DNA from: Betaproteobacteria bacterium HGW-Betaproteobacteria-9
GTDB taxonomy: Bacteria > Pseudomonadota > Gammaproteobacteria > Burkholderiales > Burkholderiaceae_C
Assembly: GCA_002842215.1 (NCBI GenBank)
Contig: PHCC01000012.1
Location: 1-64,000, forward strand
Length of the DNA: 64,000 nt
Reading direction: 5' to 3'
Position 1 is the first letter of the stretch, and every line of letters begins with the position of its first letter. The notes below the pieces were generated by a model, which saw only the letters and a program-made list of their open reading frames with translations, ran no database searches and had not been told where the DNA came from. Below, one piece after another: positions 1-27,393 of the stretch. The translations under genes were made by a program, and so were the position numbers.

Positions 1-1
1 G

Positions 2-4770: not shown

Positions 4771-4902
4771 CAGGTGAAACCCACATAACCGTGGAAATTC
4801 CATCGGATTCGCAAGAACACACGGGCTTTCGTGAAAACCAACGTTCAGGAGCCAATTTTTACGAAGCCAACGTCTCGTTTTGACCCAGTCGCCCCAATCA
4901 CC

Positions 4903-6482: not shown

Positions 6483-6594
6483 CGGTATCTCCGTAACTCA
6501 AATTTGACTCTGCCGTCCACTCCCTCAAACTGAAAGCGCGAGGAAAAAATGCAACCCGCACAACCCAACGAACCAATCTTTAAGGAGAACTCAC

Positions 6595-6921: not shown

Positions 6922-7154
6922 TCCGCCTGCGCTCGCTGGAGATCCCCGCGCTGGTTTCCAGCGTTGAGCGAACGGGCGCTGGTGCGCACCGGGCGGCAGG
7001 TTAAACCCGTTCACAACGGACAAGAACTACCAGCGGGTTGGCAACTGATATCTGTCAATCAAAAAGCCGGCACGTTCGATGCCAGCAGCTTGACCAGTTC
7101 CATGAAATTCCCACTCGGCGCCGTACCCATGCGCACAAATTAGATATTCTTCAT

Positions 7155-9164: not shown

Positions 9165-9196
9165 TCACCATCATTCACCCCCGAAAAGGATCAAAC

Positions 9197-9502
9197 ATGA
9201 CCGCTACCTATTCTGAACTGATGGCCCAAGCTCAAGCGCTGATGGCCCAAGCCGAAGCCGCCCGCAAGGCCGAATTATCCACCGTGATCGCCGACATCAA
9301 AGCCAAGATGCGCGAGATGGGCATCACGATTGATGATCTGGGTGAGGGCAAATCCAAATCTTCGGGCAAAGCAAAGCCGAAAGCCGAGCCGAAGTTCCGC
9401 GGCCCCAACGGCGAACTCTGGAGTGGTGGTCCTGGCCGCAAACCTCAGTGGGTAGTGGACGCTGTTGCCGCTGGCAAGAACATCGAAGAATTCCGGATCT
9501 GA
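9197..9502 (+). CDS. H-NS-family nucleoid-associated protein
   Basis: C-terminal FRGPNGELWSGGPGRKPQWVVDAVAAGKNIEEFRI resembles H-NS DNA-binding motif. Confidence 0.8.
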   Translation: MTATYSELMAQAQALMAQAEAARKAELSTVIADIKAKMREMGITIDDLGEGKSKSSGKAKPKAEPKFRGPNGELWSGGPGRKPQWVVDAVAAGKNIEEFRI

Positions 9503-9512
9503 GGACGGGTGG

Positions 9513-9707
9513 ATGCGACTGCTGATTGCGCTGCTGTTGCCCTGGCTGACGTTCTTCACGATCGGCCGTCCGTTTGCCGGCATCCTTTGCCTTCTGTTGC
9601 AGATCACGATCATCGGCTGGCTCCCAGCCACAATCTGGGCGGTCTACGCCCTGGGTCAGTACAAGACCGACAAAAAGATTGCAAAAGCCTTGTCCACCAA
9701 GGCCTAA
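9513..9707 (+). CDS. YqaE/Pmp3-family small membrane protein
   Basis: MRLLIALLLPWLTFFTIGRPFAGILCLLLQITIIGWLPATIWAVYAL. Confidence 0.7.
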   Translation: MRLLIALLLPWLTFFTIGRPFAGILCLLLQITIIGWLPATIWAVYALGQYKTDKKIAKALSTKA

Positions 9708-10115
9708 AACAATGCGCACCCACGGTGCACCGGATTCAGAGGAAGCAGCCAGTGGCTGCTTTTTTTGTTTCTAAGTGGGTTATTCGCCCTTGCCTTCGTC
9801 CTGGATGGCGAGCACGCCCCTGAGGTCCAGTCCAGTCGGGATGCGAGGCTTCCGATCATCGGATCGTAGGCCGGGCCAGCCGCGTGGCCATCAATTCTGC
9901 TCACCGCCATCCCTGTCCCCCGGACATAGGTCGGTGATTCACCTTCTGACTCGAACGTCCAGCGCAAGCGACCAACACCTGTCCGATGGACCCGGTGGAT
10001 CCTGTAAGCAAGGTAGAGAACGGCGGATTCTGAGAGTACTTTAGACCTCTTTTTTCGGTAGAAATCTTATATAACCAAAAGACATATACAGACATCCAGT
10101 AAGGCCAAAAAACGG

Positions 10116-10140
10116 AAATGGACCCAATGGGTCCATTTTT
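10116..10140. terminator. Probable intrinsic terminator
   Basis: AAATGGACCC-AAT-GGGTCCATTT 10-bp perfect stem followed by T run; A-run on other side. Confidence 0.6.
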
Positions 10141-10526
10141 AGTGCTGGAACCAGATTTGACAGCCGGTTTTTGTCTGAAAACATGGACTCAACAAGGAGT
10201 CCAACTCCATCATCAGTCTGTCCGAAAAAAAAATTCGTTCGCGTCTACCCATTCAAAACCACCAGACCGAAACAAAGCGCCTGAACGTGGATACCCATAT
10301 GCTCCCCTTTCAATGAGGTGTGGAGATGACAAGGTTCGAAAGCTCTCGGTAATTGGCCCCTTTCAGCCCACTGCTCTCATCATCACACATCAAAATGGAG
10401 CCATACAAAGACGAGGCATTTGTCGAACCACTGCACCAGTGAGTGACGGAAAAATCCGTTCTTTCTGTATCGGCCGACGAATGCATGGTCCTGTCCATTG
10501 GTGAAGGTTGATCAGGAAAGTGGAAT

Positions 10527-10763
10527 ATGAGCCTGGGTGTTTTGACAGAACAAGAACTCGTGGATCTTACGGGTTACAAAATTCCGAGCCGGCAGCTTGA
10601 AGCGCTTAAATCGCGAGGGTTCGCTCGGGCATATCGTGGACGAAATGGGCGCATCATTCTTGAGCGCCCCCACTATGACTCGGTATGCCGAGGTGAGTAC
10701 CAACCTTTTCAACAGACAGCTATTCGCCGATCGGCAAACGTCAGCATTTTCAAAAAGGAGTAG
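10527..10763 (+). CDS. DUF4224-like protein
   Basis: LTEQELVDLTGYKIPSRQLEALKSRGFARAYRGRNGRIILERPHYD; directly upstream of an integrase, as is usual for DUF4224. Confidence 0.7.
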   Translation: MSLGVLTEQELVDLTGYKIPSRQLEALKSRGFARAYRGRNGRIILERPHYDSVCRGEYQPFQQTAIRRSANVSIFKKE

Positions 10764-11864
10764 ATGATGTCCCGACATCGCGACACACCAGATGGCTTAC
10801 CCTATCGATTGTATGAACGCAAAGGCGTGAGGATATATAGCATTGCTTACAAGCAACCAAACAATCGCTGGGCCTTCCGCTACTCATGCAGTGCCGAGGA
10901 CCGAACAAGGATTGCAGAGCTTCGAGCCAAAGCCATTTCGGAGGCAGCCGGTTTCGGGTTGGGTTCAATCGCAGTTGGTTCGACCACTGAGCTAATTGAA
11001 GCGTGGTTTGATCACCAAATGCGACTGCCATCCAACGACGCCCACCGTCGCGCGGATTCCACCCTCGCAGAGAATCAGCGCGAAGCGCGGAACCTGAAGA
11101 AAGCTTTCGGTCACATGTGGCCTGAAGAGATCACCAAGACAGATGGCTATGCATATCTCGATGCCTGTGCCCAGGCCTCAAGGCCCGCAAAGGGAAACAA
11201 GGAAATCGCGCTGTTGCACCTGATCCTCGAGCATGGGGTTCGGATCGGACGATTGAACGCCAACCCGCTCCAGGGTCTGCGCAAGCTCAAGACCAAAAGT
11301 GAAAAACGCTACGTCACAGATGAAGAGCTGAACCTGGCGGTGGACGTTGGTCGCATCAAAGGCGGCACTCGTCACATCGTTGCCATGGCCCTAAAGACAG
11401 CCTACCTCTGCACAAGGAGGTCGGTCGAAGTACGCGCCATCATGCGCGACTCGATCACTGACGAAGGCGTGCTCTGGTATGACGGCAAGAACAAGGACAA
11501 GCCCCCGGTGCTGATCGAATGGACACCTGAGCTGCGAACCACGATTGCGGAAGTTCAACAGATCAAACGGCACCATGTCGCGGGAACACTCTACCTCTTC
11601 GGCAACATGAAAGGGCAAAGGTACACCAAAGGTGGATGGAAAGCCGTGCTGGATGACCTGATGGCCGACTGCCTGGTCGAGGCCAAAAATCGCAACATGC
11701 CATTCAGACGCTTCAGCTTGCAAGAATGTCGACCTAAAGGCGCATCGGACAAGATGTCAGCGGGACACACCGATGCGAAGGATGCTCTCGGCCACACCAC
11801 AGACCGGCTTCTCGGGCAGGTCTATGACCGTCGCCTCGTGAAGAAAGCAACGCCTGTACGATGA
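10764..11864 (+). CDS. Tyrosine-type site-specific integrase (element 1)
   Basis: 366-aa ORF with phage-integrase-like N-terminus and ALKTAYLCTRRSVEVRAI...ALGHTTDRLLGQVYDR C-terminus; adjacent to att repeat. Confidence 0.82.
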   Translation: MMSRHRDTPDGLPYRLYERKGVRIYSIAYKQPNNRWAFRYSCSAEDRTRIAELRAKAISEAAGFGLGSIAVGSTTELIEAWFDHQMRLPSNDAHRRADSTLAENQREARNLKKAFGHMWPEEITKTDGYAYLDACAQASRPAKGNKEIALLHLILEHGVRIGRLNANPLQGLRKLKTKSEKRYVTDEELNLAVDVGRIKGGTRHIVAMALKTAYLCTRRSVEVRAIMRDSITDEGVLWYDGKNKDKPPVLIEWTPELRTTIAEVQQIKRHHVAGTLYLFGNMKGQRYTKGGWKAVLDDLMADCLVEAKNRNMPFRRFSLQECRPKGASDKMSAGHTDAKDALGHTTDRLLGQVYDRRLVKKATPVR

Positions 11865-11935
11865 AGTCAATTCCAAAATTTGGAATATCAAAGCAAAAAC
11901 GGGCTACGACCGAAACCGTAACCCGTTGATTCTAT

Positions 11936-11983
11936 TGGCGGAGTGGACGGGGCTCGAACCCGCGACCCCCGGCGTGACAGGCC
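11936..11983 (-). repeat. attachment-site repeat: 48-bp copy of tRNA-Asp 3' part
   Basis: TGGCGGAGTGGACGGGGCTCGAACCCGCGACCCCCGGCGTGACAGGCC identical to 27317-27364; tRNA homology ends abruptly after it. Confidence 0.92.
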
Positions 11984-12084
11984 TTAAATACCCTGTTCTT
12001 CAAGTCTATGTAAACAGCGCGCTGTGCGAGTTTTTGACCTAGAATTGCCTCTTATGGGGACAATTTGGGGACAGCAGGACTTTC

Positions 12085-13242
12085 ATGGCAGTAATCACGC
12101 AGAGAGAGAATGGAAAGTGGCAGGCAAAGATTCGGCGCCAGGGCACCCCTGCGCAGAGCAAGACTTTCGTCACGAAGGCTGACGCAGAAAAATGGGCGCG
12201 CTCGGTCGAGCGCGACATTGATACAGGCGCATTCATCCCCACCGACGACGCTGCGCGACTCACGTTCGCTGCAGCAACCGAGAGGTATCGACGTGAGGTG
12301 CTTCCTAACCTTCGCGGCCGGATGCAGGTTGAAACCCGACTGACTCGACTTCTTGAGACGTTTGGAAAGTACTCGCTGTCATCCATAAGCGGCGCGATGG
12401 TCGCCAGCTACCGCGATGAGCGCCTGCGATCGGTCTCCCCCCAGACTGTCGTACATGAGCTTGGCCAGATCCAGCAGATATTCAAAAGGGCGACGCACGA
12501 ATGGGGCATCCAATTACCGAGAGGCCTGCCAACCCTGCTTGTAAGTAAGCCGAGACTCCCTCCCGGCAGGGATAGACGCTTAGAGACCGGCGAAGAGGCT
12601 CTCCTACTTGATCAAGCATCGCAGTTAGCGCAACCCTGGGTGAGGGCAATTATCATTTTGGCAACAGAGACAGCGGGTAGGCAAAGTGAGCTTCTTTCAC
12701 TGACATGGAGCCAGGTGGACCTTCAGCGCCGTGTCGCCCGGCTTTTTGGCAAGGACGGCGCCATCACCAAGAATGGAGCACCTTTTCGAGATGTTCCGCT
12801 ATCCTCCCGGGCAATTGCCACATTGGAAGCACTTCCGCGCAACCTCAAGGGACCCGTCTTCCCTATTTCCCAGAATGCGCTTCAACTAAGCTGGGAACGC
12901 CTATGCAAATCCGCAAGAAAAAAACACCTGCTCACCCGGTTGAAATCAATGCTCGAAGGAGACGGAATGTCGGCAGAGGAGGCGGAAAGAGAGGTCAAGG
13001 CACTGGTATTTAAAAAGCGAGTACCGACCTCACTTACAACATCCCACTGGGCTGAATTGAAACTTCACGACAAGATGCTGACAGATCTTCATTTTCACGA
13101 CCTCCGACACGAGGCAACAAGTCGACTGGCGGATCGACTTCAATTGCACGAGCTGATGAAAGTCACAGGTCATAAAACTTCCGCGATGGTTTCAAGGTAC
13201 TACCACCCTAGGGCGGAAGATCTTGCTGCAAAACTAGCATAG
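12085..13242 (+). CDS. Tyrosine recombinase/integrase (element 2)
   Basis: GRQSELLSLTWSQVDL, HFHDLRHEATSRL, VTGHKTSAMVSRYYHP: R-HxxR-H-Y catalytic set. Confidence 0.92.
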   Translation: MAVITQRENGKWQAKIRRQGTPAQSKTFVTKADAEKWARSVERDIDTGAFIPTDDAARLTFAAATERYRREVLPNLRGRMQVETRLTRLLETFGKYSLSSISGAMVASYRDERLRSVSPQTVVHELGQIQQIFKRATHEWGIQLPRGLPTLLVSKPRLPPGRDRRLETGEEALLLDQASQLAQPWVRAIIILATETAGRQSELLSLTWSQVDLQRRVARLFGKDGAITKNGAPFRDVPLSSRAIATLEALPRNLKGPVFPISQNALQLSWERLCKSARKKHLLTRLKSMLEGDGMSAEEAEREVKALVFKKRVPTSLTTSHWAELKLHDKMLTDLHFHDLRHEATSRLADRLQLHELMKVTGHKTSAMVSRYYHPRAEDLAAKLA

Positions 13243-13462
13243 TGATCTCGCTTGATGCAGATTGGGTCGGAACCTGTAGTTCCTTCTCCTGAGTTGTGCT
13301 GTCACCACAGTGGCCCAAGGAGACCTAAAAATCGAACATTCCTATTGCTTTTTCCGTCACTAAGGGGAGAATACAGCGGTCCGCATTTATTTGCTGTCCG
13401 AGCTGACGTTTCAGTCATTGGTTTTTCTGTGCCGAGGTACAGATGCCCAAAACACATTGGGC

Positions 13463-13832
13463 TGCGGTTCCCAGACCGCAACTGGAGTCAGCTCTCGCTG
13501 AACCAGATGAAGCACACAAGACCTTGTGATGCCCTTCATAAAAGTAGTCACACACTGTGACTTCTTGCAAGCGCAATAGCTTGCATAGCTCCATACCAAG
13601 ACAACCGAAGAAAAAGCTGAACTCAGCACGTGCGTCACTGCGCACGACCGCAAGGTCGTCGCAGTGACGCACCGCTAAAAAGCAACTTTTTCGGCGTGCG
13701 TCAACGCATCTGGAGCCAGCTGTCGCAGTGACAGCGAAAAGTTTGGTCGTTCGATTGAACGCAAGTCGCGGGCTAGCCGGCCCGCCAGGTGACCTCTCGC
13801 AACAGCGAGCAGCCTCCCCAAGGGGAAAGCTG
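13463..13832 (+). other. Hairpin-dense non-coding tract, candidate structured ncRNA or ssDNA-active site
   Basis: At least ten short perfect stem-loops in about 370 bp, including 13630-13672 with a GCAA loop. Confidence 0.5.
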
Positions 13833-13862
13833 TGAGTCCCATGAACCTCAACCTTTTGGGTG

Positions 13863-13918
13863 CCGGGGTGACTTGCGTTTTACCTCCCTCTTGCGGGGGA
13901 GGGATTGCAGCACCCCGG
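13863..13918. other. Nested inverted repeat upstream of second recombinase
   Basis: CCGGGGTG (13863-13870) / CACCCCGG (13911-13918) enclosing CCTCCC...GGGAGG. Confidence 0.6.
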
Positions 13919-13942
13919 AATATTTTTAGGCTGACCAAAAAT

Positions 13943-14821
13943 ATGAACAGAAACGAAATCAATAGAATTAACCAGCATACTGGTGGCTCAACCCTAACCA
14001 AAAAAGGTCGAGAATCAACGCTATTGGCCTTCGCTCAAACACTTAGAGCGACTCTCAATATTCAAGTTCGAAGCTTTGGAGATCTCAAAATTGAACATAT
14101 TCGACGCTATGTCGAATATACACGTGCGCAAGGAGTTTCCAATCGCACACTGCAAAACCAGATGTCCCGCCTGCGCACTGCCCTTCGGGTATGCGGGCGG
14201 GACAAATTCGCAAACGACAAGAAAATTTCCAACAAATCAATTGGAATTGGGCGCGCATCGCGGAACGGAACTCACGTGCCATTCAATTCGATAGAAGAGA
14301 ATAAACGAATCGGTAGCATTTCCGATCCAGGTGTTCAGGCGGCAGCCAGACTACAAAGAGAAATGGGCCTTCGAATGCAAGAAGCAATTCGGTCCATCGA
14401 CAGTCTTTCAACTTGGATGAAAGAACTTCAAAGTCATGGACTTGTGACTATAATTCACGGCACCAAAGGGGGTCGACGTCGAATCGTTGATTTCAATGTT
14501 GGAAATGCCAAATGTACTGCCATCAATGCCGTCCAAAATGCAATTGAAGTTTTACAAAAACAGAGCGAACTGGTGGCGAGCAAGAGTCTGCAAGGAGCAT
14601 GCCGAAAGTACCAACGTGAGCTTGCAGCAGTTGGGTTCAGCGGAGCACAAGCCTCTCACTCACTGAGATGCAGCTGGGCACAAGATCAGTATTTTCGACA
14701 CCTGACCGCTACCCAAGACAATAGAATGGAGTCATTGTCTCGGCTTTCACTCGATTTGGGGCATGGTGACGGTCGTGGCAGATACTGTCGTCAGGTTTAT
14801 CTGAAAAACTCCGCAAAATGA
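13943..14821 (+). CDS. Second tyrosine recombinase (integrase-domain protein)
   Basis: QREMGLRMQEAIR, ASHSLRCSWAQ, LGHGDGRGRYCRQVYL match Arg / HxxR / LGH...Tyr pattern. Confidence 0.78.
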   Translation: MNRNEINRINQHTGGSTLTKKGRESTLLAFAQTLRATLNIQVRSFGDLKIEHIRRYVEYTRAQGVSNRTLQNQMSRLRTALRVCGRDKFANDKKISNKSIGIGRASRNGTHVPFNSIEENKRIGSISDPGVQAAARLQREMGLRMQEAIRSIDSLSTWMKELQSHGLVTIIHGTKGGRRRIVDFNVGNAKCTAINAVQNAIEVLQKQSELVASKSLQGACRKYQRELAAVGFSGAQASHSLRCSWAQDQYFRHLTATQDNRMESLSRLSLDLGHGDGRGRYCRQVYLKNSAK

Positions 14822-15066
14822 TGCACACCACCCCTGGCGCGGCAAGTACATTATTCAATTCAAATATCTCCCACTTTCCTCCTCAACCTATTTATCTCTT
14901 GGCGCGTTCTTCTATTTTCCGAGCTTATCATTCGAACAAATGCAAGACAAAATGGGAAGCAGGAAATCATGACAACATCAATTATAAAAGTCAGCTGAGA
15001 CATGTACATGACTAAAGTCATTCAAATGTAAATAATCTACAATCTTATTTCTAGAAGGTACTCAAT

Positions 15067-15354
15067 ATGGACAAAATGAAAATCTGGACAGGATGGATCG
15101 ACTATTCTGCAACAGGCGAGGGTCGAACAATCAAGGGGATTATTGCTCAGGCAACCGACGAGGAAGCTTTCAAACAAAAGATCATCGAAAATTTCGGAGA
15201 TTATTTCGCAATCGATAGCAACGTTGAGCAAGGCATCGTGCGAAATGAACTGACTGAATTCTTGTGGTCAAAGCAGACTCTCGATTTTGTCGCCGCAAAC
15301 AAAGAGGCCGGAACGGTATCGATCACATCCTCAGTGCACTTCAATTTTGCATGA
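15067..15354 (+). CDS. Hypothetical protein
   Basis: 95-aa ORF preceded by purine-rich AGAAGG sequence. Confidence 0.5.
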   Translation: MDKMKIWTGWIDYSATGEGRTIKGIIAQATDEEAFKQKIIENFGDYFAIDSNVEQGIVRNELTEFLWSKQTLDFVAANKEAGTVSITSSVHFNFA

Positions 15355-15558
15355 CTAGGGACTGAAGCTACCTGCTCTGGGACGAGCACGCGTAAGGTGT
15401 CGTCATGTTGCCACTGATGGGTCGCTATCGCCATTGAGATGAAGAACGAACACTAACGGAGTGCAAGCAGAGAAGGCGTGGCTTTTCCAGACGCGCCCGG
15501 GCTTCAAACTTGGGCCGTCAGCATTCCTGCGAGCAATATTCTCTTTTTCTCATTCACT

Positions 15559-16305
15559 TTAACAGAAAACGCGACGTACCCAGATTTTCTCAATTCGATG
15601 GGTGACGATATCCAGAACTTCCCGGACTCGACGAAGTGACGCTTTGGCATCAATATCCTCGGGACCTCGTAAAGGATCGACGATACCTGTCACAAACTCG
15701 CCCAGGGTAGTGTTACGCGAACGCAGTTTCCTCAAGGCATCCTCCAGCAGCAGGTAGTTCATGGCCCGCGCTTCTGCCGGACAAATTTCGACGATCTTGC
15801 GCTCGTAGCGCACAAAAGGGTGTGACAGGTAAAAGGTTCCCGTGCCGAAAACAAGAGCGGCAGCCGCAGCCATACGCTTTTCGTATCGGCTTAGCGTGAC
15901 TGCAGAGCCTGCAAGCTTGGAGGCGAGCAGCGCTTCCTGCAACGGTTTGAACTTGACGAGCCTCTCAGTGCTTTTAAGCGGTACGTCCATACGCTCCACC
16001 TCCAGGTCATTGAAGTAGGCCTCAACGATCAGTTCATCTTCAAAGCAATCCAATAGAAATTGCTCAAGATCAGGGTCGGAGCTCCGTTTCCGGCTGGAAT
16101 GCAAGTTGCCACGGAACGACCCTATGAACGACTTGTCAAGGCGGTACAAATTGTTTGCACAACTGCAACCTGTCTCTTGCATCACGAACTCCGTAGTGAT
16201 CTCATGCGCGAACTGCTTGGCGCGAGAAAAATCAATTTCTACGCATGTACGGCCATTCCCGGCGTCAAAGCGGATTCGGCGCCTACTAAAACTATCTGAC
16301 TTCAT
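15559..16305 (-). CDS. Hypothetical protein
   Basis: Long ORF without a competing frame; no family recognised. Confidence 0.5.
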   Translation of the reverse strand: MKSDSFSRRRIRFDAGNGRTCVEIDFSRAKQFAHEITTEFVMQETGCSCANNLYRLDKSFIGSFRGNLHSSRKRSSDPDLEQFLLDCFEDELIVEAYFNDLEVERMDVPLKSTERLVKFKPLQEALLASKLAGSAVTLSRYEKRMAAAAALVFGTGTFYLSHPFVRYERKIVEICPAEARAMNYLLLEDALRKLRSRNTTLGEFVTGIVDPLRGPEDIDAKASLRRVREVLDIVTHRIEKIWVRRVFC

Positions 16306-16629
16306 TTTCTTGTCCCTTTCCTGCATCAATGATTGACTCAAAACATAACAACTAACATATCAAAGTGAATGCTGCGTTTGAGCAGGTCATCAACAGATAG
16401 TATGGGTAAATCAATCACACTCCATATTTCCGAACTGCTCAAAACCACGATCTCATACTTCTCGATTTTCGCAAGGGCCTGTACGCAACTTTTTGAGCCA
16501 AATTCCTAGCTGCGCAGCTCAGGTACTTTCATGGCCGGCAACTGATACGAGGCCGCCTTCGAAGCCACTGCTAGACTTCAACGCAGCCGAAAAAAGCAAG
16601 CCAATCGACTATCCCCTGCAGCCAACCGC

Positions 16630-18348
16630 ATGAACCTCACCGAACAACAGTTCTTCGACGACCTCGAAAAGAAACTCTGGACCGCCGCCAACAAGCTGCT
16701 GCCCAGCCTGGACGCCGCCGTTTACAAGCACATCGTGCTCGGCCTGCTGTTCATCAAGTACGTGTCCGACGCGTTTGAAGAGCGCCAGAACGAACTCAAG
16801 GCCCAGTTCACCGACCCGGCGCACGACTACTACATGAACCCGGCCGAGTACCCCGGCACCTTTGAGGCCGACCTGGCCGCCGAGCTGGAGGTGCGCGACT
16901 ACTACACCGAGAAGAACGTCTTCTGGGTGCCCAGCGAAGCGCGCTGGCCCATGCTGGTGGCGTGCGCCCAGCTGCTGCCCGGCACCGCCCTGCCCTGGAA
17001 CCAGGCGGGCAAGAACGAGCCCGAAAAGATGCGCACCGTTGGCTGGCTCATCGACAACGCCATGGAAGCCATCGAGCGCGAGAACGAGAAGAAGCTCAAG
17101 AACGTGCTCAACAAGAATTTCGCCAACACTCAAATCGAGTCGTACAAGCTGGCCGAACTCATGGCCCTGTTCTCCGACACCAACTTCCACGCCACAGAAT
17201 ACAAGGGCCAGCCGCTCAGCCTCAAGGCCAAGGACATCCTGGGCCACATCTACGAGTACTTCCTTGGCCAGTTCGCGCTGGCCGAAGGCAAGAAGGGCGG
17301 CCAGTACTACACGCCCAAAGCCATCGTCAGCCTCATCGTCAACATGCTCCAGCCCTTCAAGGGCCGCGTGTACGACCCGGCCATGGGCTCCGGCGGCTTC
17401 TTCGTGCAGAGCGAAGAGTTCATCGAACAGCACAGCGGCAAAGTGGCCCAAGGCTCGGGCAACAAAGCCAGCGGCCAGATCAGCGTCTACGGGCAGGAGA
17501 GCAACCCCACCACCTGGAAGCTAGCGGCCATGAACATGGCCATCCGCGGCATCGACTTCAACTTTGGCGGCGGCCACGCCGACACCCTGCTCAACGATCT
17601 GCATCCAGACCTGCGGGCCGACTACGTCATGGCCAACCCCCCCTTCAACATGAAGGAATGGTGGAACGCCAAGTTGGAAAAAGACCCACGCTGGATCGCC
17701 GGCACGCCGCCCGCGGGCAATGCCAACTTCGCCTGGCTGCAGCACATGCTCTACCACCTGGCACCCACCGGCAGCATGGCCCTGCTGCTGGCCAACGGCT
17801 CCATGAGCAGCAACACCAACAACGAAGGCGACATCCGCAAGAAGCTGGTGGAAGACGACTACTTCGAATGCATGGTCGCCCTGCCCGGCCAGCTCTTCAC
17901 CAACACGCAGATCCCGGCCTGTATCTGGTTCCTGACCCGCGACAAGGCCAACGGCTTCAATCTCAACAAGAAAAAGCGCGACCGGCGCAAGCAGTTCCTC
18001 TTCATCGACGCGCGCCAGATGGGCTACATGAAAGACCGCGTGCTGCGCGACTTCACCCAGGCCGACATCGACAAGATCGCCGACACCTTCCATGCCTGGC
18101 AGCAAGGCGACGAGTATGGGGACGTCAAAGGCTTCTGCTACTCAGCCAGCCTGGAGGACATCCGCAAACACGAACACGTGTTGACACCGGGGCGCTATGT
18201 GGGCGCCGAAGACCAGGAAGAAGACGCCGAAGCCTTCGCAGACAAGATGGCGCGACTGGCGGCGCAGCTGGCGGAGCAGTTCGCTGAAAGCGCGAAACTG
18301 GAGGAGCAGATCAAAACGAATCTGGCGAGGTTGGGATATGACCTCTGA
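16630..18348 (+). CDS. hsdM: Type I restriction-modification system methyltransferase subunit HsdM
   Basis: N-terminal LTEQQFFDDLEKKLWTAANKLLPSLDAAVYKHIVLGLLFIKYVSDAFEERQ; DPAMGSGGFF; NPPFNMKEWW. Confidence 0.96.
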   Translation: MNLTEQQFFDDLEKKLWTAANKLLPSLDAAVYKHIVLGLLFIKYVSDAFEERQNELKAQFTDPAHDYYMNPAEYPGTFEADLAAELEVRDYYTEKNVFWVPSEARWPMLVACAQLLPGTALPWNQAGKNEPEKMRTVGWLIDNAMEAIERENEKKLKNVLNKNFANTQIESYKLAELMALFSDTNFHATEYKGQPLSLKAKDILGHIYEYFLGQFALAEGKKGGQYYTPKAIVSLIVNMLQPFKGRVYDPAMGSGGFFVQSEEFIEQHSGKVAQGSGNKASGQISVYGQESNPTTWKLAAMNMAIRGIDFNFGGGHADTLLNDLHPDLRADYVMANPPFNMKEWWNAKLEKDPRWIAGTPPAGNANFAWLQHMLYHLAPTGSMALLLANGSMSSNTNNEGDIRKKLVEDDYFECMVALPGQLFTNTQIPACIWFLTRDKANGFNLNKKKRDRRKQFLFIDARQMGYMKDRVLRDFTQADIDKIADTFHAWQQGDEYGDVKGFCYSASLEDIRKHEHVLTPGRYVGAEDQEEDAEAFADKMARLAAQLAEQFAESAKLEEQIKTNLARLGYDL

Positions 18349-19660
18349 CGTTCAATACAGACCGCTAAACGAGGTGGCTCAGCTTTCGAGCGGCAAGCGC
18401 CCTATATCAGTTATCAAGGAGAGGACAGCGTCACACGGAGTGCCCGTTATTGGGGGCGGCGGTACGTCGGGATTCACTGAGCACCACCTCTTCACTGAAG
18501 ACATCCTGATAACTGGCCGTGTTGGCACCCTAGGAAAACTGTTCGCACCGAAAGGTCCGTGCTGGCCTTCTGACAACGCCTTGGTTATCCGACCAAGGGA
18601 CGGTCTCGTGCATTTTCAGTACTTGAAATATGCATTGGGAAGCGTGATCCAAGCAGCCGTCGGATTGAACCGCGGCGCGGCCAACCCGCTTGTCACCCAA
18701 ACTGACCTGGGTCGACTCGAAATTCCCGTTCCAGACAAGACCGTTCAAAAACAGATCGCGATGGTGTTAGCAAGGCTTGACGACAGAATCGAAGTTAACC
18801 ACCGCATCAACGAAACCCTTGAAGCCATGGCGCAAGCCATCTTCAAATCGTGGTTTGTCGATTTCGACTCCGTCAAAGCCAAGATCGCCGCCAATGTCGA
18901 AGGCGGCGACCCGCTGCGCGCTGCGATGACCGCCATCAGCGGCAAGCCCGACGCCCAACTCGATACCCTGCCCCCCGACCAGTTCGCCACCCTCGCCACC
19001 ACCGCCGCGCTATTTCCGGATGAGATGGAGGACTCGGCGTTTGGGGTGATTCCGAAAGGGTGGAATGTCGGAACTTTCAAAGACTGTTGCCTGCGCGTAG
19101 AAAGTGGCGGCACGCCAAGCAGGAAGGAGCCCGCATTTTGGGGAGGCTCGATACCGTGGCTGACTTCCGGGGAAGTCAGAGATGTCGTGGTGCTGGATAC
19201 AAAGGAAAAAATCTCGCGCGCGGGTCTTGATGCGAGCAACGCCAAGTTGTGGCCGGCGATGTCTACCGTAGTAGCCATGTACGGGGCAACAGCTGGGCAA
19301 GTCTGTCTGATAGCCAATGAAATGACGGCGAATCAAGCCTGCTGCGCCTTGATTCCCAAGGCGGCATTCAAGTCTTTTATCTTCATCGCAGCACGCCAGG
19401 CAGTTCAACAGCTCGCAGAGAAAGCATCCGGTTCGGCGCAACAAAACTTGAACAAGTCACTGGTTGAAAACCACGTTCATGTGATCCCAGATGACGGTGT
19501 CGCTGAAAGATTTGAACTGGCGACAACTTCGCTGCTGCAAAAGTGGGTTCTGAATCAAAGGGAGGCAGCTACGTTGGCTCAACTCCGCGACAACCTTCTG
19601 CCCAAACTCCTGTCTGGCGAACTGCAAGTCCAAAGCAGTGAGATGGAGGCCGCAGCGTGA
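18338..19660 (+). CDS. hsdS: Type I restriction-modification specificity subunit HsdS
   Basis: Two target-recognition halves (VPVIGGGGTSGFTEHHL..., SGGTPSRKEPAFWGGSIPWLTSGEV...); ATG overlaps hsdM stop. Confidence 0.93.
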   Translation: MTSDVQYRPLNEVAQLSSGKRPISVIKERTASHGVPVIGGGGTSGFTEHHLFTEDILITGRVGTLGKLFAPKGPCWPSDNALVIRPRDGLVHFQYLKYALGSVIQAAVGLNRGAANPLVTQTDLGRLEIPVPDKTVQKQIAMVLARLDDRIEVNHRINETLEAMAQAIFKSWFVDFDSVKAKIAANVEGGDPLRAAMTAISGKPDAQLDTLPPDQFATLATTAALFPDEMEDSAFGVIPKGWNVGTFKDCCLRVESGGTPSRKEPAFWGGSIPWLTSGEVRDVVVLDTKEKISRAGLDASNAKLWPAMSTVVAMYGATAGQVCLIANEMTANQACCALIPKAAFKSFIFIAARQAVQQLAEKASGSAQQNLNKSLVENHVHVIPDDGVAERFELATTSLLQKWVLNQREAATLAQLRDNLLPKLLSGELQVQSSEMEAAA

Positions 19661-20940
19661 GCGAGACCCTCCAACCACCAACAACCGCGCAAGAGTCACC
19701 AGCCTCCAGCGACTACTTCTCGCCGATCCCGCTCTGGAACGCTGAAGGGCAGACCAAGCGCTTCGAGGTGATGGCCGACCGGCTGGGGGACCGCATCCCG
19801 GTAACGCGCCTGGAGAGCTGGCGCCAGTTCTCCGAGTTGCTGGAGAGTGACTTTTTCCGCCGGCAAGATTTGGTGTTTCGCGGCCATCGCCGTCACGACT
19901 GGGGACTGATGCCCACGCTGGGCAGGGTGACGACGGACGGCATCGTCACCAAGCCACTGGCTGATGCGCAACTCGAACGGTTCAAGCGGGCTGTGCGGGG
20001 CCGGTTGCACGACACCGCCTTGCTGGAAGACGACGACGAGATGTGGTCTGTAGGGCAGCACCATGGTTTGATGACGCCGCTGCTCGACTGGACCTATTCG
20101 CCATACGTGGCCCTGTTCTTCGCCTTTCAGAAAGAGGACCCGAAGAAAGAACAGGACAACCCATACCGCGCCGTGTACGTGCTCGACAAGCGCTTCCTGG
20201 CCAACCCGGCCATCGTGGCTGAAACAGGCATTCGAGTGGTCGAGCCAAGGCTGGACCACTATGGCAGGCTGGTGAACCAGGCCGGCTTGTTCACCTACTC
20301 GCCTCCTGACGCGACGATCGAGAACAAGCTGACCAATGTGCTGGCTGACGACGAAGGCTTCACCGATGAAGACCTTCGCAACGCTTCGGAGGATGAACAG
20401 CCCGGGCTGCTGGCGCGCTACATCTGCAAGATCTACATCCGCAACGACGACAGGGACAACTGCGTGCAGCACTTGCGGCGAATGAACGTGCACCACGCCA
20501 GCTTGTTCCCAGACCTGATTGGTGCCTCGGACTACTGCAACATCCTGGCCAGTGAAGTGGAGCAGGCGGCCGAGATCGAGCGGCAGGCCAGGCGGATCGC
20601 TGCTGCTGGATCGACGTCAATTGAGGCCCCCGTAGAAGCCCCGGTCGAGGCCCCAGCGATTGGACTGGCCAACACCGACAGCATCGAATTCTTGCTGCGG
20701 GCACCGCCCGCAGCCCAGCAGGTGGAGCCTGGTCGCGTTGGCTTGATCGCGCTGGAGCTGGCCAAGGCCTTGGTTGAAAACCAAGTGGTGGATTGGGACA
20801 AGCGTGACGCGGTGCAGGCGCGGCTGCGCAATGCAATTCGGGTGGTGCTGCGCCGTTATGGTTATCCGTCGGTGGCTCGCGATGCGGTGGCCGAGCAGGT
20901 GTTGGCTTTGGCCAAACAGACGCCTGCCGAGCCAGCGTAG
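19657..20940 (+). CDS. FRG-domain protein with HsdR-like C-terminal module
   Basis: QDLVFRGHRRHDWGLMPTLGR FRG motif; GTGA overlap with hsdS stop; C-terminal 360-427 aligns to the HsdR C-terminus. Confidence 0.85.
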   Translation: MSETLQPPTTAQESPASSDYFSPIPLWNAEGQTKRFEVMADRLGDRIPVTRLESWRQFSELLESDFFRRQDLVFRGHRRHDWGLMPTLGRVTTDGIVTKPLADAQLERFKRAVRGRLHDTALLEDDDEMWSVGQHHGLMTPLLDWTYSPYVALFFAFQKEDPKKEQDNPYRAVYVLDKRFLANPAIVAETGIRVVEPRLDHYGRLVNQAGLFTYSPPDATIENKLTNVLADDEGFTDEDLRNASEDEQPGLLARYICKIYIRNDDRDNCVQHLRRMNVHHASLFPDLIGASDYCNILASEVEQAAEIERQARRIAAAGSTSIEAPVEAPVEAPAIGLANTDSIEFLLRAPPAAQQVEPGRVGLIALELAKALVENQVVDWDKRDAVQARLRNAIRVVLRRYGYPSVARDAVAEQVLALAKQTPAEPA

Positions 20941-20975
20941 CTACCTGCCATGCACAAGCGGGGGAGAACAAGATC

Positions 20976-21974
20976 ATGAACGCGACCCGGCATACACCGG
21001 CTTTCAAACCTCTCAAACCCTGGATCTCTTTTGCCGACCAGCTTGCCCAACTGGAGCAGCGCGGCATGGAGGTGGAGAACAAGGTTGCGGCTCTGGACTA
21101 CCTGGAACGCATCGGTTACTACCGGCTCAGCGGCTACTGGTATCCGATGCGGGCCATTGACATAGCTGCCTCGCTCGCACAGGGGCAGGCTGTGCGTTCC
21201 AACGCATTCGTTGGCGGCACGCGGTTTGAAGATGTTGTGCACCTGTATGTGTTCGACAAAAAGCTGCGCCTGCTGGCGCTGGATGCACTGGAGCGCATCG
21301 AATTGGCGGTGCGGGTGGATGTGGCGCATTTGCTGGGGCAGCGCGACCCGAAGGCGCATGAGAACCCTGCTTGTCTGCACGGCAACTTTGCCAAGAAGGT
21401 GATCACCAAAGGGCCGGATACAGGGAAGACGGAGCACCAGGTGTGGCTGTCCAAATTCCAGGCGCTGCTGCAGCGGGCTCGCAAGGAGCCTTTTGTGCAA
21501 CACCACAAGCAGCAGTACGGCGCGTTGCCGATCTGGGCCGCCATCGAGGTGTGGGACTTTGGCCTGCTTTCCAAACTGTTCGCAGGCATGAAGCACGCCG
21601 ACCAGCAGGCGGTTGCCGCCATTTATGGCGCCCCTGATGGTCAGACCTTTGCTCAGTGGTTGCGGAGCTTGAACTTCATCCGCAATGTGTCGGCCCACCA
21701 CAGCCGTTTGTGGAATCTGAACGTGGTGGAGCGGGCTTCATTACCTGCGGACTGGCCTGCCGCGCTGGATAACTCCCGCCCGTTCTTCTATTTCTGCCTG
21801 ATGCAGCAATTGCTCAACGTGATCTGCCCCAATTCAGCCTGGGGGCAACGTGTGACGGAGCTGTTGGAGGGAGGTTTCCCGAACACGCAGAACGGGGTGT
21901 TGTCGCTGGACGACTTGGGGGCCGTGGTGGGCTGGGCAGAAACCATGCCGTGGAAAAAGCAGGCCCCCAAATGA
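20976..21974 (+). CDS. Abi_2-family (AbiD/AbiF-like) abortive infection protein with HEPN-type motif
   Basis: FKPLKPWISFADQLAQLEQRGMEV...YLERIGYYRLSGYWYPMR and LNFIRNVSAHHSRLWN (Rx4-6H). Confidence 0.88.
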   Translation: MNATRHTPAFKPLKPWISFADQLAQLEQRGMEVENKVAALDYLERIGYYRLSGYWYPMRAIDIAASLAQGQAVRSNAFVGGTRFEDVVHLYVFDKKLRLLALDALERIELAVRVDVAHLLGQRDPKAHENPACLHGNFAKKVITKGPDTGKTEHQVWLSKFQALLQRARKEPFVQHHKQQYGALPIWAAIEVWDFGLLSKLFAGMKHADQQAVAAIYGAPDGQTFAQWLRSLNFIRNVSAHHSRLWNLNVVERASLPADWPAALDNSRPFFYFCLMQQLLNVICPNSAWGQRVTELLEGGFPNTQNGVLSLDDLGAVVGWAETMPWKKQAPK

Positions 21975-22100
21975 AAACCGACGCGTACACAGAGTGCAGA
22001 GGCGTCGGGCGTATTGCATCTAATTCTAACGATATCGGGTACCCAGGTCAAACACTGTTAGACCGAAGGCCGGCAGGACCCATGCCGTGAAAGAGCACAC

Positions 22101-25100
22101 ATGCTGAACGAACAACAACTCGAAGACCTGTGCATCGGCTGGTTCCAGCAGACGGGCTGGCAGTTCGTCCACGGGCCGGACATTGCGCCAGAAGGCGACC
22201 GGCCGGAACGGGCGGACTTTCGGCAGGTGATCCTGCACGATCGGTTGCTGGCGGCACTGGCACGCATCAACCCGCAGATTCCTGCCGCTGCGCTGGAGCA
22301 GGCGGTGCACACCTTGCACACCGTCAGCGAGCCGCTGCAGGTGGTGCGCAACCGGGCGGTGCATCGGTTGCTGCTGGGCGGGGTGGACGTGAGCTTTGCC
22401 AACCCTGACGGCGAAGGCAAGAAGAGTGACTTGGTCAGCCTGATCGACTTTGCGAACCCGACCAACAATCAGTTCCTGGTGGTCAACCAGTTCACCGTGG
22501 CGGGTACCAAGCAGCCGCGCCGGCCGGACTTGGTGCTGTTCGTCAACGGCCTGCCGCTGGCGGTGATCGAGCTCAAGAACCCGGCCAACGAGCAAACCGA
22601 CATCTGGGACGCGTTCAACCAGTTGCAAACCTACAAGGACGAAACGGCCGATTTGTTCAATTGCAACACGGCGCTGGTGGTCAGCGACGGGTTCACCGCC
22701 CGGGTGGGCGCGCTCACGGCCGATGCCGAACGCATGCTGCCCTGGCGCACGATTGCCAACGAAGACGACCGCCCCCGTTTGCAGATGGAGTTGGAGACGC
22801 TGGTGCGCGGCTTCTTCAAGCCCGAGCTGTTTCTGGACTATGTGCGGCACTTTGTGCTGTTCGAGCAGGACGGCGACACCATTGTCAAGAAGATCGCGGG
22901 CTATCACCAGTTCCACGCGGTGCGCGAAGCGGTGCGCGCCACGGTGATCGCGGCGCAGGACGCGGACAAGGGCTTGCTGGAGGTGCACGAAGAACGCGCC
23001 ACCTACGGCAAGGAGGTGAAGCCTGGTTCGCGCAAGGCGGGTGTGGTGTGGCACACGCAGGGTTCGGGCAAGAGCATCACCATGGCCTGCTACGCAGGCA
23101 AGCTGCTTCAACATCCCGAAATGAAGAACCCAACCCTGGTGGTGGTGACCGACCGCAACGACCTTGACGGCCAGCTCTTCGGCACCTTCAGTGCGGCCAG
23201 CGACTTGCTGCGGACCACACCTATGCAGGCCAAAGACCGCGACGAACTGCGCGAGATGCTGGCCTCGCGCCAAGCGGGCGGCATCATCTTCACCACGGTG
23301 CAGAAGTTCGCGCTGCTCGACGGAGAAGAGGCGCACCCGCTGCTGTCGGGTCGTTCGAACATTGTGGTGATGTCGGACGAGGCGCACCGCAGTCAGTACG
23401 GCATGAAGGGCCGACTGGACACCACGACAGGTAAGTACGTTTATGGCTACGCCAAGCACCTGCGCGACGCACTGAAGAACGCCACCTTCATTGGCTTCAC
23501 CGGTACGCCCATCGCATTGGAAGACAAGGACACCCGCGCGGTGTTTGGGGACTACGTCAGCATCTACGACATCCAGGACGCGGTGGACGACGGCGCGACG
23601 GTGCCCATTTTTTACGAGAGCCGGCTGGCCAAGCTTGACGTGAAGCAGGCCGAGATTGACGCGCTCAATGTCTTGGTGGATGAAGTGGTCGAAGACGAAG
23701 AAGACTTCGCCAGCCGCGAGAAGACCAAGAGCGAATGGGCCGCGCTTGAAAAGCTGGTGGGCGCCGAGCCGCGTCTGCAGCAGGTGGCCAAAGACCTGGT
23801 GCAGCACTTTGACGTGCGCATCAGCACCATCGACGGCAAGGCCATGATCGTGTGCATGAGCCGCGACATCTGCGCTCAGCTTTACAGCGCCATCGTGGCG
23901 TTGCGCCCGGACTGGCACAACGCCGACCCGGAGCAGGGCGCCATCAAGATCGTGATGACCGGCTCAGCAGCCGACAAGCCGTTGTTGCAGCCGCACCTGT
24001 ACACGCACAAGGTGAAGAAGCGGCTGGAAAAGCGCTTCAAGGACCCGAAGGATGGGCTGAAGCTGGTGATCGTGCGCGACATGTGGCTGACCGGATTTGA
24101 CGCGCCGTCGTGCCACACCATGTATGTGGACAAGCCCATGAAGGGCCACAACCTGATGCAGGCGATTGCACGGGTGAACCGGGTGTTCAAGAACAAGCCC
24201 GGTGGCCTGGTGGTGGACTACATCGGCATTGCCAGCGAGCTGAAGGCCGCGCTGAAAACCTACACCGAGTCCAAAGGCAAGGGCGACCCCACACACAACG
24301 CTGCCGAGGCGCTGGCCGTGCTGCTGGAGAAGATGGACATCGTGCGCGGGTTGATGCACGGCTTTGACTACAGCGCCTTCGAGACCGACGCGGTGCCGCT
24401 GCTGGTGCCTGCAGCGAACCACCTGCTGGGCCTGAAAGACGGGAAGACCCGTTTTCTGGATGTGATGACGGCCGTGAGCAAGGCGTTTTCGCTCTGCGGC
24501 ACGCTGGACGACGCCGCCGCGATGCGCAGAGAGATCGCCTTCTTTGCCGCCATCAAGGCAGCTATCACCAAGTTCACCACGGTGGACAAGAAGCGCACCA
24601 CCGAAGACAAGAACAGCGCGCTCAAGCAGATCCTGGACAACGCCATCGTGGCCGATGGCGTGGCAGACATCTTTGCGCTGGCCGGGCTGGACAAGCCCAA
24701 CATCGGTTTGCTGTCGGACGAGTTCCTGGAAGACGTACGGCAGATGAAGACGAAGAATCTGGCCGTTGAGCTGTTGGAGAAACTGCTGCGCGACGAGATC
24801 AGGGCGCGCGCGCGCAACAACGTGGTGCAGGAAAAGAAATACGGCGACCGCCTGCTGGAGACCTTGCGCAAGTACCACAACCGCGCCATCGAAACCGCAC
24901 AGGTGATCGAAGAGTTGATTCAGATGGCCAAGGAGTTCCAGGCGGTGCTGGAACGCGAGTCCGCGCTGGGCCTGAGTCCGGACGAGATCGCTTTCTACGA
25001 CGCCTTGGCCAACAACGAAAGCGCGGTGCGCGATCTCGGCGACGACATCCTGAAAAAGATCGCCGTTGAAATCACCGAAAAACTGAAAGCCAGCACCACG

Positions 25101-25265
25101 GTGGACTGGCAGGTGCGCGAGAGCGTGAGGGCTCGCCTACGCATACTGGTGCGCCGCACTTTGCAGAAGTGGAAGTACCCTCCTGACCAGCAACCGGGGG
25201 CCGTGGAGCTGGTATTGAAACAGGCTGAGTCGCTTTCGAACGATTGGTCTAGCAACTTGCATTGA
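22101..25265 (+). CDS. hsdR: Type I restriction enzyme subunit HsdR
   Basis: RRPDLVLFVNGLPLAVIELKNP nuclease motif; HTQGSGKSITM; SDEAHRSQYG; GFTGTPI. Confidence 0.96.
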   Translation: MLNEQQLEDLCIGWFQQTGWQFVHGPDIAPEGDRPERADFRQVILHDRLLAALARINPQIPAAALEQAVHTLHTVSEPLQVVRNRAVHRLLLGGVDVSFANPDGEGKKSDLVSLIDFANPTNNQFLVVNQFTVAGTKQPRRPDLVLFVNGLPLAVIELKNPANEQTDIWDAFNQLQTYKDETADLFNCNTALVVSDGFTARVGALTADAERMLPWRTIANEDDRPRLQMELETLVRGFFKPELFLDYVRHFVLFEQDGDTIVKKIAGYHQFHAVREAVRATVIAAQDADKGLLEVHEERATYGKEVKPGSRKAGVVWHTQGSGKSITMACYAGKLLQHPEMKNPTLVVVTDRNDLDGQLFGTFSAASDLLRTTPMQAKDRDELREMLASRQAGGIIFTTVQKFALLDGEEAHPLLSGRSNIVVMSDEAHRSQYGMKGRLDTTTGKYVYGYAKHLRDALKNATFIGFTGTPIALEDKDTRAVFGDYVSIYDIQDAVDDGATVPIFYESRLAKLDVKQAEIDALNVLVDEVVEDEEDFASREKTKSEWAALEKLVGAEPRLQQVAKDLVQHFDVRISTIDGKAMIVCMSRDICAQLYSAIVALRPDWHNADPEQGAIKIVMTGSAADKPLLQPHLYTHKVKKRLEKRFKDPKDGLKLVIVRDMWLTGFDAPSCHTMYVDKPMKGHNLMQAIARVNRVFKNKPGGLVVDYIGIASELKAALKTYTESKGKGDPTHNAAEALAVLLEKMDIVRGLMHGFDYSAFETDAVPLLVPAANHLLGLKDGKTRFLDVMTAVSKAFSLCGTLDDAAAMRREIAFFAAIKAAITKFTTVDKKRTTEDKNSALKQILDNAIVADGVADIFALAGLDKPNIGLLSDEFLEDVRQMKTKNLAVELLEKLLRDEIRARARNNVVQEKKYGDRLLETLRKYHNRAIETAQVIEELIQMAKEFQAVLERESALGLSPDEIAFYDALANNESAVRDLGDDILKKIAVEITEKLKASTTVDWQVRESVRARLRILVRRTLQKWKYPPDQQPGAVELVLKQAESLSNDWSSNLH

Positions 25266-25269
25266 CCAG

Positions 25270-25278
25270 TTGTCCACA
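25270..25278 (+). promoter_or_regulatory. DnaA-box-like sequence TTGTCCACA
   Basis: One mismatch to TTATCCACA, next to iteron-like array. Confidence 0.35.
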
Positions 25279-25336
25279 CCCCTGCTCGAATTCACTGTTT
25301 CTAAAAAAATACTCAAGATCCGGACTCATATATGGT

Positions 25337-25441
25337 GCATGCGGTCGCACGACACGGGCGCATGTGGTTGCACGAACTACTGCATGCGGTCGCACGGGTC
25401 GCGCTGCATGCAGTCTCACGACTCACGCATGCGCTCGGTCA
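25337..25441 (+). repeat. Iteron-like direct repeats (GCATGCGGTCGCACG), candidate replication origin
   Basis: Units at 25337, 25360, 25382, 25406 and partial at 25427; spacing 23, 22, 24, 21 bp. Confidence 0.75.
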
Positions 25442-25620
25442 TCCCATCTTTGAAGGGCGAGGTCGAAGCGGCAACACTCGTGTCATCAAAATCCACCACT
25501 AAGATCGCTTCTTTCAAAGCTACTGAAATCTACCGGGATCTATCAATATATAAGGCTGTATAACAACCTTCAGTACTGGCGACGCCAGCAGCCGGTCTCG
25601 CCGCGCTGCAAAGTGTTCAG

Positions 25621-26475
25621 TCATTGCCTCACTTTGAGCAACCCGGCCGCATCGATTTCCCAGAAAAAATCCTGGCCATGGTCCCGCCTGGCCTTGGTCA
25701 CAGATCGCAGGGACCTGACCAACGTCTGCTTAAAACTGCGAAGGTCCTTAGTCTGGCTGCCCGAGAGCCATTTCACAGTTTCAATTCGAAGAGCGTGCGC
25801 CTCTGGCTGGCTGCTGTAGTACCCATGCAGCCACTTTGCCAGTGGCTTTCCATGCAGGTCTGCACGGACCTCCGAATGTAAAGAGGCAAAGCCACCAGGC
25901 GCGAAGAGCTTCACAAGATCAGGATCGATGCGCAAGCTCCATGCATCACCTGCGCACGGCCGTTTTGCACTGGACAACAGCGAACCGATGAACCTGGCCC
26001 CCCCTTGATCAATATCTAGGACTGCGCCAGCCAGTCTTTTCAAGCTTGCCTCGAGCTCAGCATAGCTCCTCCCGTCATCACCTTTCCTTTGGGCAAGCAG
26101 CAGTCGCCGAGCAGGCGCAACTACGACGCCGCCAAGCGGTTGGCCGCGCGCTGTGTCCAGGACAGCCAAAAGCACGTCAAGGTCCTGTTGGTCTAAAAGC
26201 TGGCCAGTGAAGCGCACTCGCATGTTTGAAAGGCCTGCAATCTGCTGGTCCCTCACAAACTCGCGCGCACCACCTTTTTTTCTTCGGTCTGCCATCGCTG
26301 CAAACAGGGCTGTGCGTAAGGCAACGTGTGGTGCAAGTTTTCGTCCCTGGTTTACCCCAGGCAAACTGACCTGACTAACCTGCCCCTCTGCGATCTGGAC
26401 TTCCTGCCTGATTTGAGTCAGCTCAACTTGCACCCTGATGCGTGCGAGGGCTTCATCTATGGATCGACTTGTCAT
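25621..26475 (-). CDS. TrfA-like plasmid replication initiator
   Basis: QLLDQQDLDVLLAVLDTARGQPL...GRSYAELEASLKRLAGAVLDI...WSLRIDPDLVKLFAPGG...KPLAKWLHGYYSSQPEAHALRIETVKWLSGS...KQTLVRSLRSV resembles TrfA family. Confidence 0.72.
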   Translation of the reverse strand: MTSRSIDEALARIRVQVELTQIRQEVQIAEGQVSQVSLPGVNQGRKLAPHVALRTALFAAMADRRKKGGAREFVRDQQIAGLSNMRVRFTGQLLDQQDLDVLLAVLDTARGQPLGGVVVAPARRLLLAQRKGDDGRSYAELEASLKRLAGAVLDIDQGGARFIGSLLSSAKRPCAGDAWSLRIDPDLVKLFAPGGFASLHSEVRADLHGKPLAKWLHGYYSSQPEAHALRIETVKWLSGSQTKDLRSFKQTLVRSLRSVTKARRDHGQDFFWEIDAAGLLKVRQ

Positions 26476-26477
26476 TG

Positions 26478-26822
26478 TCAGACTACCTGACCATGCTCTG
26501 TCTCCATTGGCTGCTTTCGTGGACGCCCTCGTCCGCGTTTGATAGGTAATTGCAGGACCGGAACTGACTGTGTTTGTGTCACCACTTTGTCCGTGGCACT
26601 CCCAAACGCCCACAGCCTGACCTCCGCGGCACGGAAGGTAATTTTTCGACCAAGCAAAACTGGCTGTGGAAATCCAGGTGGTGGCCTATGGATCCACCTT
26701 CTGACCGAGTTGAGCGGCTGGCCCAGGAATTCGGCAAGATGACCCAAATCCCAAAGTGCTGGGCCGGTTGATTCAGTTGAAGGGCGACTAGGGGGAGAAA
26801 GATTTTTTGAAAGAGAAGACAC
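26478..26822 (-). CDS. AlpA/MerR-type helix-turn-helix protein (putative excisionase/regulator)
   Basis: LWDLGHLAEFLGQPLNSVRRWIHRPPPGFPQPVLLGRKITFRAAEVRLW; stop 2 nt before the TrfA-like start. Confidence 0.6.
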   Translation of the reverse strand: MSSLSKNLSPPSRPSTESTGPALWDLGHLAEFLGQPLNSVRRWIHRPPPGFPQPVLLGRKITFRAAEVRLWAFGSATDKVVTQTQSVPVLQLPIKRGRGRPRKQPMETEHGQVV

Positions 26823-26850
26823 GAAGCACCACTGACGACAAGTCTTAAAG

Positions 26851-27077
26851 TCCGGGCCTTAGACCCGGAAAGTCGGCTTTATCGATGCCCCCGTACGGGC
26901 AGCAGAACGGAGGCGCGGCTGCGCGTCGTCCTAAGTGAACCAAGGCACACAACCTTGGCGACCACCTGGTGGCGAGGTGGCCGATGCTTCGATGCAGGGT
27001 CTTTCACCCTGCGGTCACACACTAACGTCGACCTTTCCAATGACGGGCAGAAACCCGAGATCCCTGACTTGCAGGGA
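26851..27077. other. Second hairpin-dense non-coding tract near right end of element 2
   Basis: Eight consecutive inverted repeats, e.g. GCAGGGT-CTTTC-ACCCTGC, CCAAGG-n7-CCTTGG, TCCGGG-n7-CCCGGA. Confidence 0.5.
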
Positions 27078-27258
27078 CCGCCACTCTAGATTGAGAGGCA
27101 GGCGAATTCTATGAGAATCCTCGAAAAACACAAGCCAGCGCATCTGATGCTCCGTGACATGCCAGGGACAGATCTGCGCAACAGTAAAAATCAAAGCAGA
27201 TCAAAGCAAGTCACACTGAGACAATGCGGGGACAGTGAAATTGATTGAAACAACAAAA

Positions 27259-27283
27259 AAGCCCAGTTTTTTGGACTGGGCTT
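27259..27283 (-). terminator. Intrinsic terminator downstream of tRNA-Asp
   Basis: AAGCCCAG...CTGGGCTT with T-run on minus strand. Confidence 0.7.
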
Positions 27284-27316
27284 ATCGTGTAACCTGTTGA
27301 TTTAACAGACATTTTC

Positions 27317-27393
27317 TGGCGGAGTGGACGGGGCTCGAACCCGCGACCCCCGGCGTGACAGGCCGGTATTCTAACCAACTGAACTACCACTCC
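27317..27393 (-). tRNA. tRNA-Asp (GTC)
   Basis: GGAGTGGTAGTTCAGTTGGTTAGAATACCGGCCTGTCACGCCGGGGGTCGCGGGTTCGAGCCCCGTCCACTCCGCCA. Confidence 0.97.

Follow-up and report, generated by a model that had tools for sequence, protein, structure and literature searches.

How does an excised genomic island that carries no conjugation genes escape loss? This question is poorly studied, and a 2017 review heads the topic of excised-island maintenance "an unexplored world" (PMC5704250). The 64-kb stretch of DNA analyzed here, referred to as the window, raises the question directly, where an earlier note had read an initiator-like gene beside a repeat array as an integrated replicon. Judging from sequence, we consider it probable that the window contains an integrative island (11936-27364) inserted at the 3' end of a tRNA-Asp gene and equipped with an iteron plasmid replicon, with which it would replicate as an excised circle.

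The island spans 15.4 kb and is integrated in tRNA-Asp, where an exact 48-bp repeat marks both ends. The left copy (attL, 11936-11983, + strand) matches the tRNA-Asp 3' end exactly and is identical to attR (27317-27364, + strand), which makes up the 3'-terminal 48 nt of the intact tRNA-Asp (gtc) gene found by ARAGORN at 27317-27393 on the - strand; within the window, the repeat occurs in these two copies only. A tyrosine integrase gene (12085-13242, + strand; Pfam Phage_integrase, 65 bits) adjoins attL, starting ~100 bp inside that border and thus at the far end of the island from trfA. The integrase is intact, its R, HxxR, GH and Y motifs are discernible, and it is 60-61% identical to the integrases of two tRNA-Arg islands discussed below (C13 and G006). 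Inspection of two relatives (G001, G017) reveals the empty site, where tRNA-Asp is contiguous with the chromosome and the flanks are joined. Together, the att repeats, the integrase and the empty sites in relatives identify the element as a bona fide site-specific island, with its own integrase and att sites as in an IME.

Arm-type-like sites were observed near both borders. A GGGACA pair, 11 bp apart, lies at the integrase end (12057-12073, + strand) and recurs at near-equal distance in two sister islands, while GGGACA/GAGACA/GGGACA sites at 27165, 27218 and 27229 (27165-27234, + strand) mark the tRNA end with a spacing pattern common to the same two sister islands. The near-equal distance of such pairs from both ends, in the window and in two sister islands, is what would be expected of arm-type integrase sites, and we infer this role for them.

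The insertion site itself is crowded. In the island's own genome, the right flank matching the empty site is the window from 27316, and the left flank is found on another contig (C15) from 48664, beginning with a 51-bp tRNA-Asp fragment. Because this left flank lies away from 11936, at least one further insert must lie between, and the tRNA-Asp site therefore holds tandem inserts. Window positions 1-11935 and C15 before 48664 belong to such further insert(s) at the same tRNA-Asp, the C15 fragment being an old left border, and the contigs end inside this material, close to transposase genes. Within the left neighbor, a two-gene unit at 4831-6482 encodes a ParM-like actin homologue (ALP_N, MreB-like_C) and is probably its plasmid partition system. 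An integrase-looking ORF with zero Pfam matches (10764-11864) stops 72 bp before attL. A second recombinase (13832-14821; Integrase_1 / Phage_int_SAM_2) lies within the island, away from the att sites.

The gene at 25621-26475 (- strand) encodes a 284-aa TrfA-like replication initiator. Its product passes the curated Pfam TrfA cut-off (PF07042; 30 versus 22 bits, E-values from locus scans being local) and reaches 29.2 bits in a whole-genome search; NCBIfam gave no TrfA model match for the protein. Searching with tblastn recovered relatives in 199 plasmid records, mostly annotated as TrfA (best 38.5% identity, E 2e-30), and a protein search of genome contigs returned one distant match. Given the lack of any relevant match in sequence-only PDB searches, whether with the single protein or a profile, a fold search was needed. 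The AlphaFold model, generated from a 13-sequence alignment (pLDDT 83, pTM 0.80), has significant PDB matches to RctB, RepE and a Rep-ssDNA complex, then to Pi and pPS10 RepA, with a Foldseek probability of ~1.0 for RctB, RepE, Pi and pPS10 RepA. All significant matches are winged-helix iteron-binding initiators, in keeping with an initiator fold of two winged-helix domains. The TrfA-like assignment made in the earlier note, which had named a TrfA/RepA-type fold match as its check, is therefore upheld by Pfam, by plasmid relatives and by fold.

The trfA gene lies on the - strand and runs in the direction of the repeats, which places the iteron array downstream of it, with the nearest iteron ~180 bp from the trfA stop. 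The adjacency of gene and array that had been claimed stands, and its orientation is now clarified. The array (25336-25441, + strand) comprises four 16-bp repeats, together covering 25336-25420, and a degenerate fifth; the spacing is 21-24 bp, as previously described. The repeat TGCATGCGGTCGCACG begins at 25336, copies follow at 25359 (81%), 25381 (100%) and 25405 (88%), and the degenerate fifth, GCATGCGCTCGGTCA, begins at 25427, giving GCATG-to-GCATG intervals of 23, 22, 24 and 21 bp. The score of this array was reached in none of 500 dinucleotide-preserving shuffles of 25201-25620, no second array of that score exists within the 64-kb window, and no further close array of the repeat was found in the island's own genome.

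Two further features proposed for the origin are present. A DnaA-box-like site, TTGTCCACA (25270-25278, + strand), agrees with the DnaA box TTATCCACA at all but one position; ~0.17 such sites are expected by chance per 800 nt, so that a single one is weak alone, but of 11 regions examined downstream of trfA genes, 7 contain a box with at most one mismatch. A candidate DNA unwinding element, the A+T-rich stretch at 25490-25565, has 63% A+T versus an element mean of 43.5% and falls in the top 1.8% of element windows; a second such stretch (60%) occupies 25261-25320. That is to say, the locus presents the layout of an iteron-type theta origin, with phased direct repeats, a one-mismatch DnaA box and an A+T-rich region beside an initiator gene.

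The same arrangement is found on free circular plasmids. In pAcX50a, pBR1.1, pNWAT02, A. chroococcum unnamed4 and pA12BJ1, 4-8 iterons directly follow trfA at a spacing of 22 bp, with one interval of 23, and none of 40 shuffles for each plasmid matched its array. Since these five plasmids share the trfA-then-iteron order, the window shows the layout of a functioning type of replicon. The small plasmids pBR1.1 (Delftia), pAcX50a (Azotobacter) and pNWAT02 (Nitrosococcus) encode TrfA proteins 33-39% identical to that of the window; in contrast to the island, they are free circles without its integrase or AlpA-AT-hook gene. The integrated-replicon reading thus draws support from TrfA family and fold, att repeats, integrase, empty sites and the layout shared with free plasmids.

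Between the tRNA and trfA lies a gene (26478-26822, - strand) whose AlpA/HTH_17-like product ends in an AT-hook (RGRP) and is a candidate excision factor, recognized by a sub-threshold HTH_17 match (E 0.022) and by homologues in sister islands, being 42-43% identical to the same-place proteins of two of them. Across islands, the protein ranges from 103 to 179 aa and includes a helix-turn-helix segment (HTH_17 / AlpA, sub-threshold), and the C-terminal AT-hook, [R/K]GRP, is present in 9 of 9 island copies compared, including two TrfA-less islands of G024. The free plasmids compared carry other genes, not AlpA-like, upstream of trfA. The AT-hook/AlpA gene, present in all islands compared and absent from that position on plasmids, is therefore part of the integration chassis; on the same grounds, we rejected the idea that it controls copy number on the plasmids and take it for an island gene. 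AlpA-like proteins are known to regulate excision. The gap between the alpA stop and the trfA start is 2 bp in the window and 14 bp in both C13 and G006. The two genes likely form one operon, an arrangement by which excision and replication would be linked. The region ahead of alpA shows no sigma-70-like promoter, and no regulator was identified. In a tRNA-Arg island end on contig 47 of G024 (L136, 6132-7686), the gene that comes after the AlpA-AT-hook gene encodes a different protein of 291 aa that may serve in replication; the chassis perhaps carries a second type of replicon here.

Comparison of sister islands indicates that the replicon is an exchangeable unit. Two complete islands in tRNA-Arg, each with a 40-bp att, share the AlpA-trfA-iteron end at the tRNA: one of 25.4 kb on contig C13 of the same genome and one of 17.4 kb in G006. 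Their integrases are 96% and their AlpA proteins 92% identical, and in DNA they agree at 89% across the 912 bp that end with alpA, on one flank of the replicon, and at 82% in the 505-bp neighborhood of a KfrA-like gene, on the other. Between these flanks, the TrfA proteins are 30% identical and the iterons unlike (CGTGACGGATGACC versus CCGTTCCAGC). Initiator and iterons therefore travel as one cassette, and such joint movement is expected of a cognate pair. With the TrfA of the free plasmid pBR1.1, the G006 protein shares 76% identity, and the iteron cores of the two agree; across a tree of 22 TrfAs, iteron cores group by TrfA clade and not by island chassis. The exchange of the replicon as a block between related islands suggests that these islands multiply as plasmids once out of the chromosome. 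The window and C13 TrfA proteins, both from one genome, are 26% identical with unlike iterons, and the two islands would therefore be expected to be compatible. Further trfA genes lie beside tRNA-Arg, tRNA-Ala or tRNA-Pro in G302, G131, G321, G200 and G356. We regard as evenly balanced the broader proposition of a tRNA-targeting island family, in a bacterial family that probably belongs to Burkholderiales, in which integrase, arm sites and AlpA-AT-hook gene make up a constant chassis and TrfA-iteron cassettes are interchangeable, possibly as an escape from incompatibility that lets two coexist per genome with different replicons; one alpA-trfA operon would switch on both excision and replication. 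Such a family would offer a compact, testable answer to how excised islands avoid loss, and the natural cassette swaps make incompatibility between islands testable.

These features suggest a sequence of events. With the alpA-trfA operon active, the integrase would be turned toward excision by the AlpA-like/AT-hook protein, producing a circle, and TrfA from the same transcript would bind the 22-24-bp-phased iterons. DnaA would assist TrfA, the A+T-rich stretch would open, and theta replication would keep the circle from loss until re-integration or helper-mediated transfer. Within this scheme, the parts that we infer are control at the promoter, the excision role of AlpA, the DnaA box, the unwinding element and the continued function of the present copy.

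The last of these parts bears on the best-surviving alternative, that the replicon worked in an ancestor and has since decayed in its initiator or iterons, leaving the island to be inherited only with the chromosome. In the tree, a long branch (1.81) leads to the window TrfA, whose best identity within that alignment is 36%, and the window iterons, four plus one at 21-24 bp, are less regular than the mostly exact 22-bp arrays of the free plasmids; decay is therefore possible, and the present copy may be weak. Loss does occur, as in the sister-type island of G356 (L074, 14177-15840), where the layout is the same and trfA is cut by an IS3-like insertion, with only its C-terminal half left beside an IS3-type transposase. 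Against decay in the window, alpA and trfA are full open frames, the key TrfA motifs LDQxDLD, WLHGYYSS and GS are all intact, the TrfA model folds well, the att repeats are exact, and the array stood out from all 500 shuffles. On balance, we consider a relic unlikely, although it is the alternative that we take most seriously.

Much less probable is that the TrfA-like protein and the repeats are a repressor and its operators, with no replication start. Iteron initiators often repress their own operon too, and alpA and trfA adjoin. However, the array lies downstream of trfA, not on the promoter side, where no close copy of the repeat is found, and the same arrangement is the sole visible replicon on small plasmids, which favors an origin.

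A replicating island, the reading that we prefer, would also multiply its cargo, such that defense genes are carried on elements that may increase in number inside the cell. The cargo (16630-25265, + strand; Pfam, PADLOC) consists of type I restriction-modification genes hsdM, hsdS and hsdR with inserted FRG-domain and AbiD-like genes. The FRG-domain protein inside the hsd operon (19657-20940; PADLOC PDC-S15) has a C-terminal tail similar to the C-terminal domain of the HsdR of that operon. By eye, the cargo of the G006 island (L046/L047, 7.2-24.6 kb) also resembles defense genes, with a methyltransferase, a McrB-like GTPase, a Vsr-like nuclease and an OLD-like plus UvrD-like pair. Pfam detects no relaxase domain in the large ORFs of the window island, no mobilization domain appears in its scanned ORFs, and the large ORFs at 12-27 kb include no conjugation apparatus genes such as define an ICE; transfer of the island, if any, would therefore require help. 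That the island is a phage satellite using this replicon and packaged by a helper phage is the least probable reading, for although an AlpA-like regulator, a tRNA integrase, defense cargo and a 15-kb size are all known from satellites and 13 TrfA relatives occur in IMG/VR contigs, such contigs can be mis-called plasmids, no TrfA homologue was found in 50,697 phage genomes, and capsid, packaging and other phage structural domains are absent from the scanned ORFs.

Among known systems, the RK2 (IncP) oriV is alike in its TrfA family, in the order of DnaA box, iterons and A+T-rich region, and in its spacing of about two helical turns per repeat; it differs in iteron sequence, in having four DnaA boxes versus one in the window, and in that the window trfA lies beside the origin (PMC4980987). 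An IncP plasmid remnant was rejected for absence of DNA-level similarity, the replicon having no blastn match among 72,556 plasmids. pSAM2 and the actinobacterial AICEs likewise combine replication with excision in a single operon (repSA-xis-int) but use a rolling-circle initiator, Gram-positive hosts and FtsK-type transfer (PMC3218068). The closest demonstrated case is SGI1, which has been shown to replicate and in which oriV, located downstream of rep, combines four G+C-rich iterons with a single DnaA box and flanking A+T-rich DNA (PMC7433901). Like the window island, SGI1 is an integrated island with oriV directly downstream of its initiator gene, and its replicon works after excision (PMC7433901, PMC7826253). 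In contrast, SGI1 inserts at trmE, has genes for mobilization and is activated by an IncC helper, whereas the window island occupies tRNA-Asp; the latter does not share the family hallmarks of trmE, SGI1-type rep and mps mobilization genes. The initiators differ as well, SGI1 rep being assigned to Pfam PF04796 (PMC9035990) versus PF07042 for the window TrfA. TrfA homologues are on record for yicC-specific integrative elements (PMC8409611), and some SGI1-related elements of V. cholerae have a trfA-like rep (PMC9035990). These elements have another integration site and an SGI1-like backbone; the passages on them describe no iterons, and they report no adjacent alpA-AT-hook gene (PMC8409611, PMC9035990). 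No description of a tRNA-targeting alpA-trfA island family was found in the literature outside subscription papers. Precedents are thus known, in the SGI1 oriV and in trfA on yicC-specific islands; what is new is the chassis, the alpA-trfA coupling and the natural swapping of initiator-iteron cassettes.
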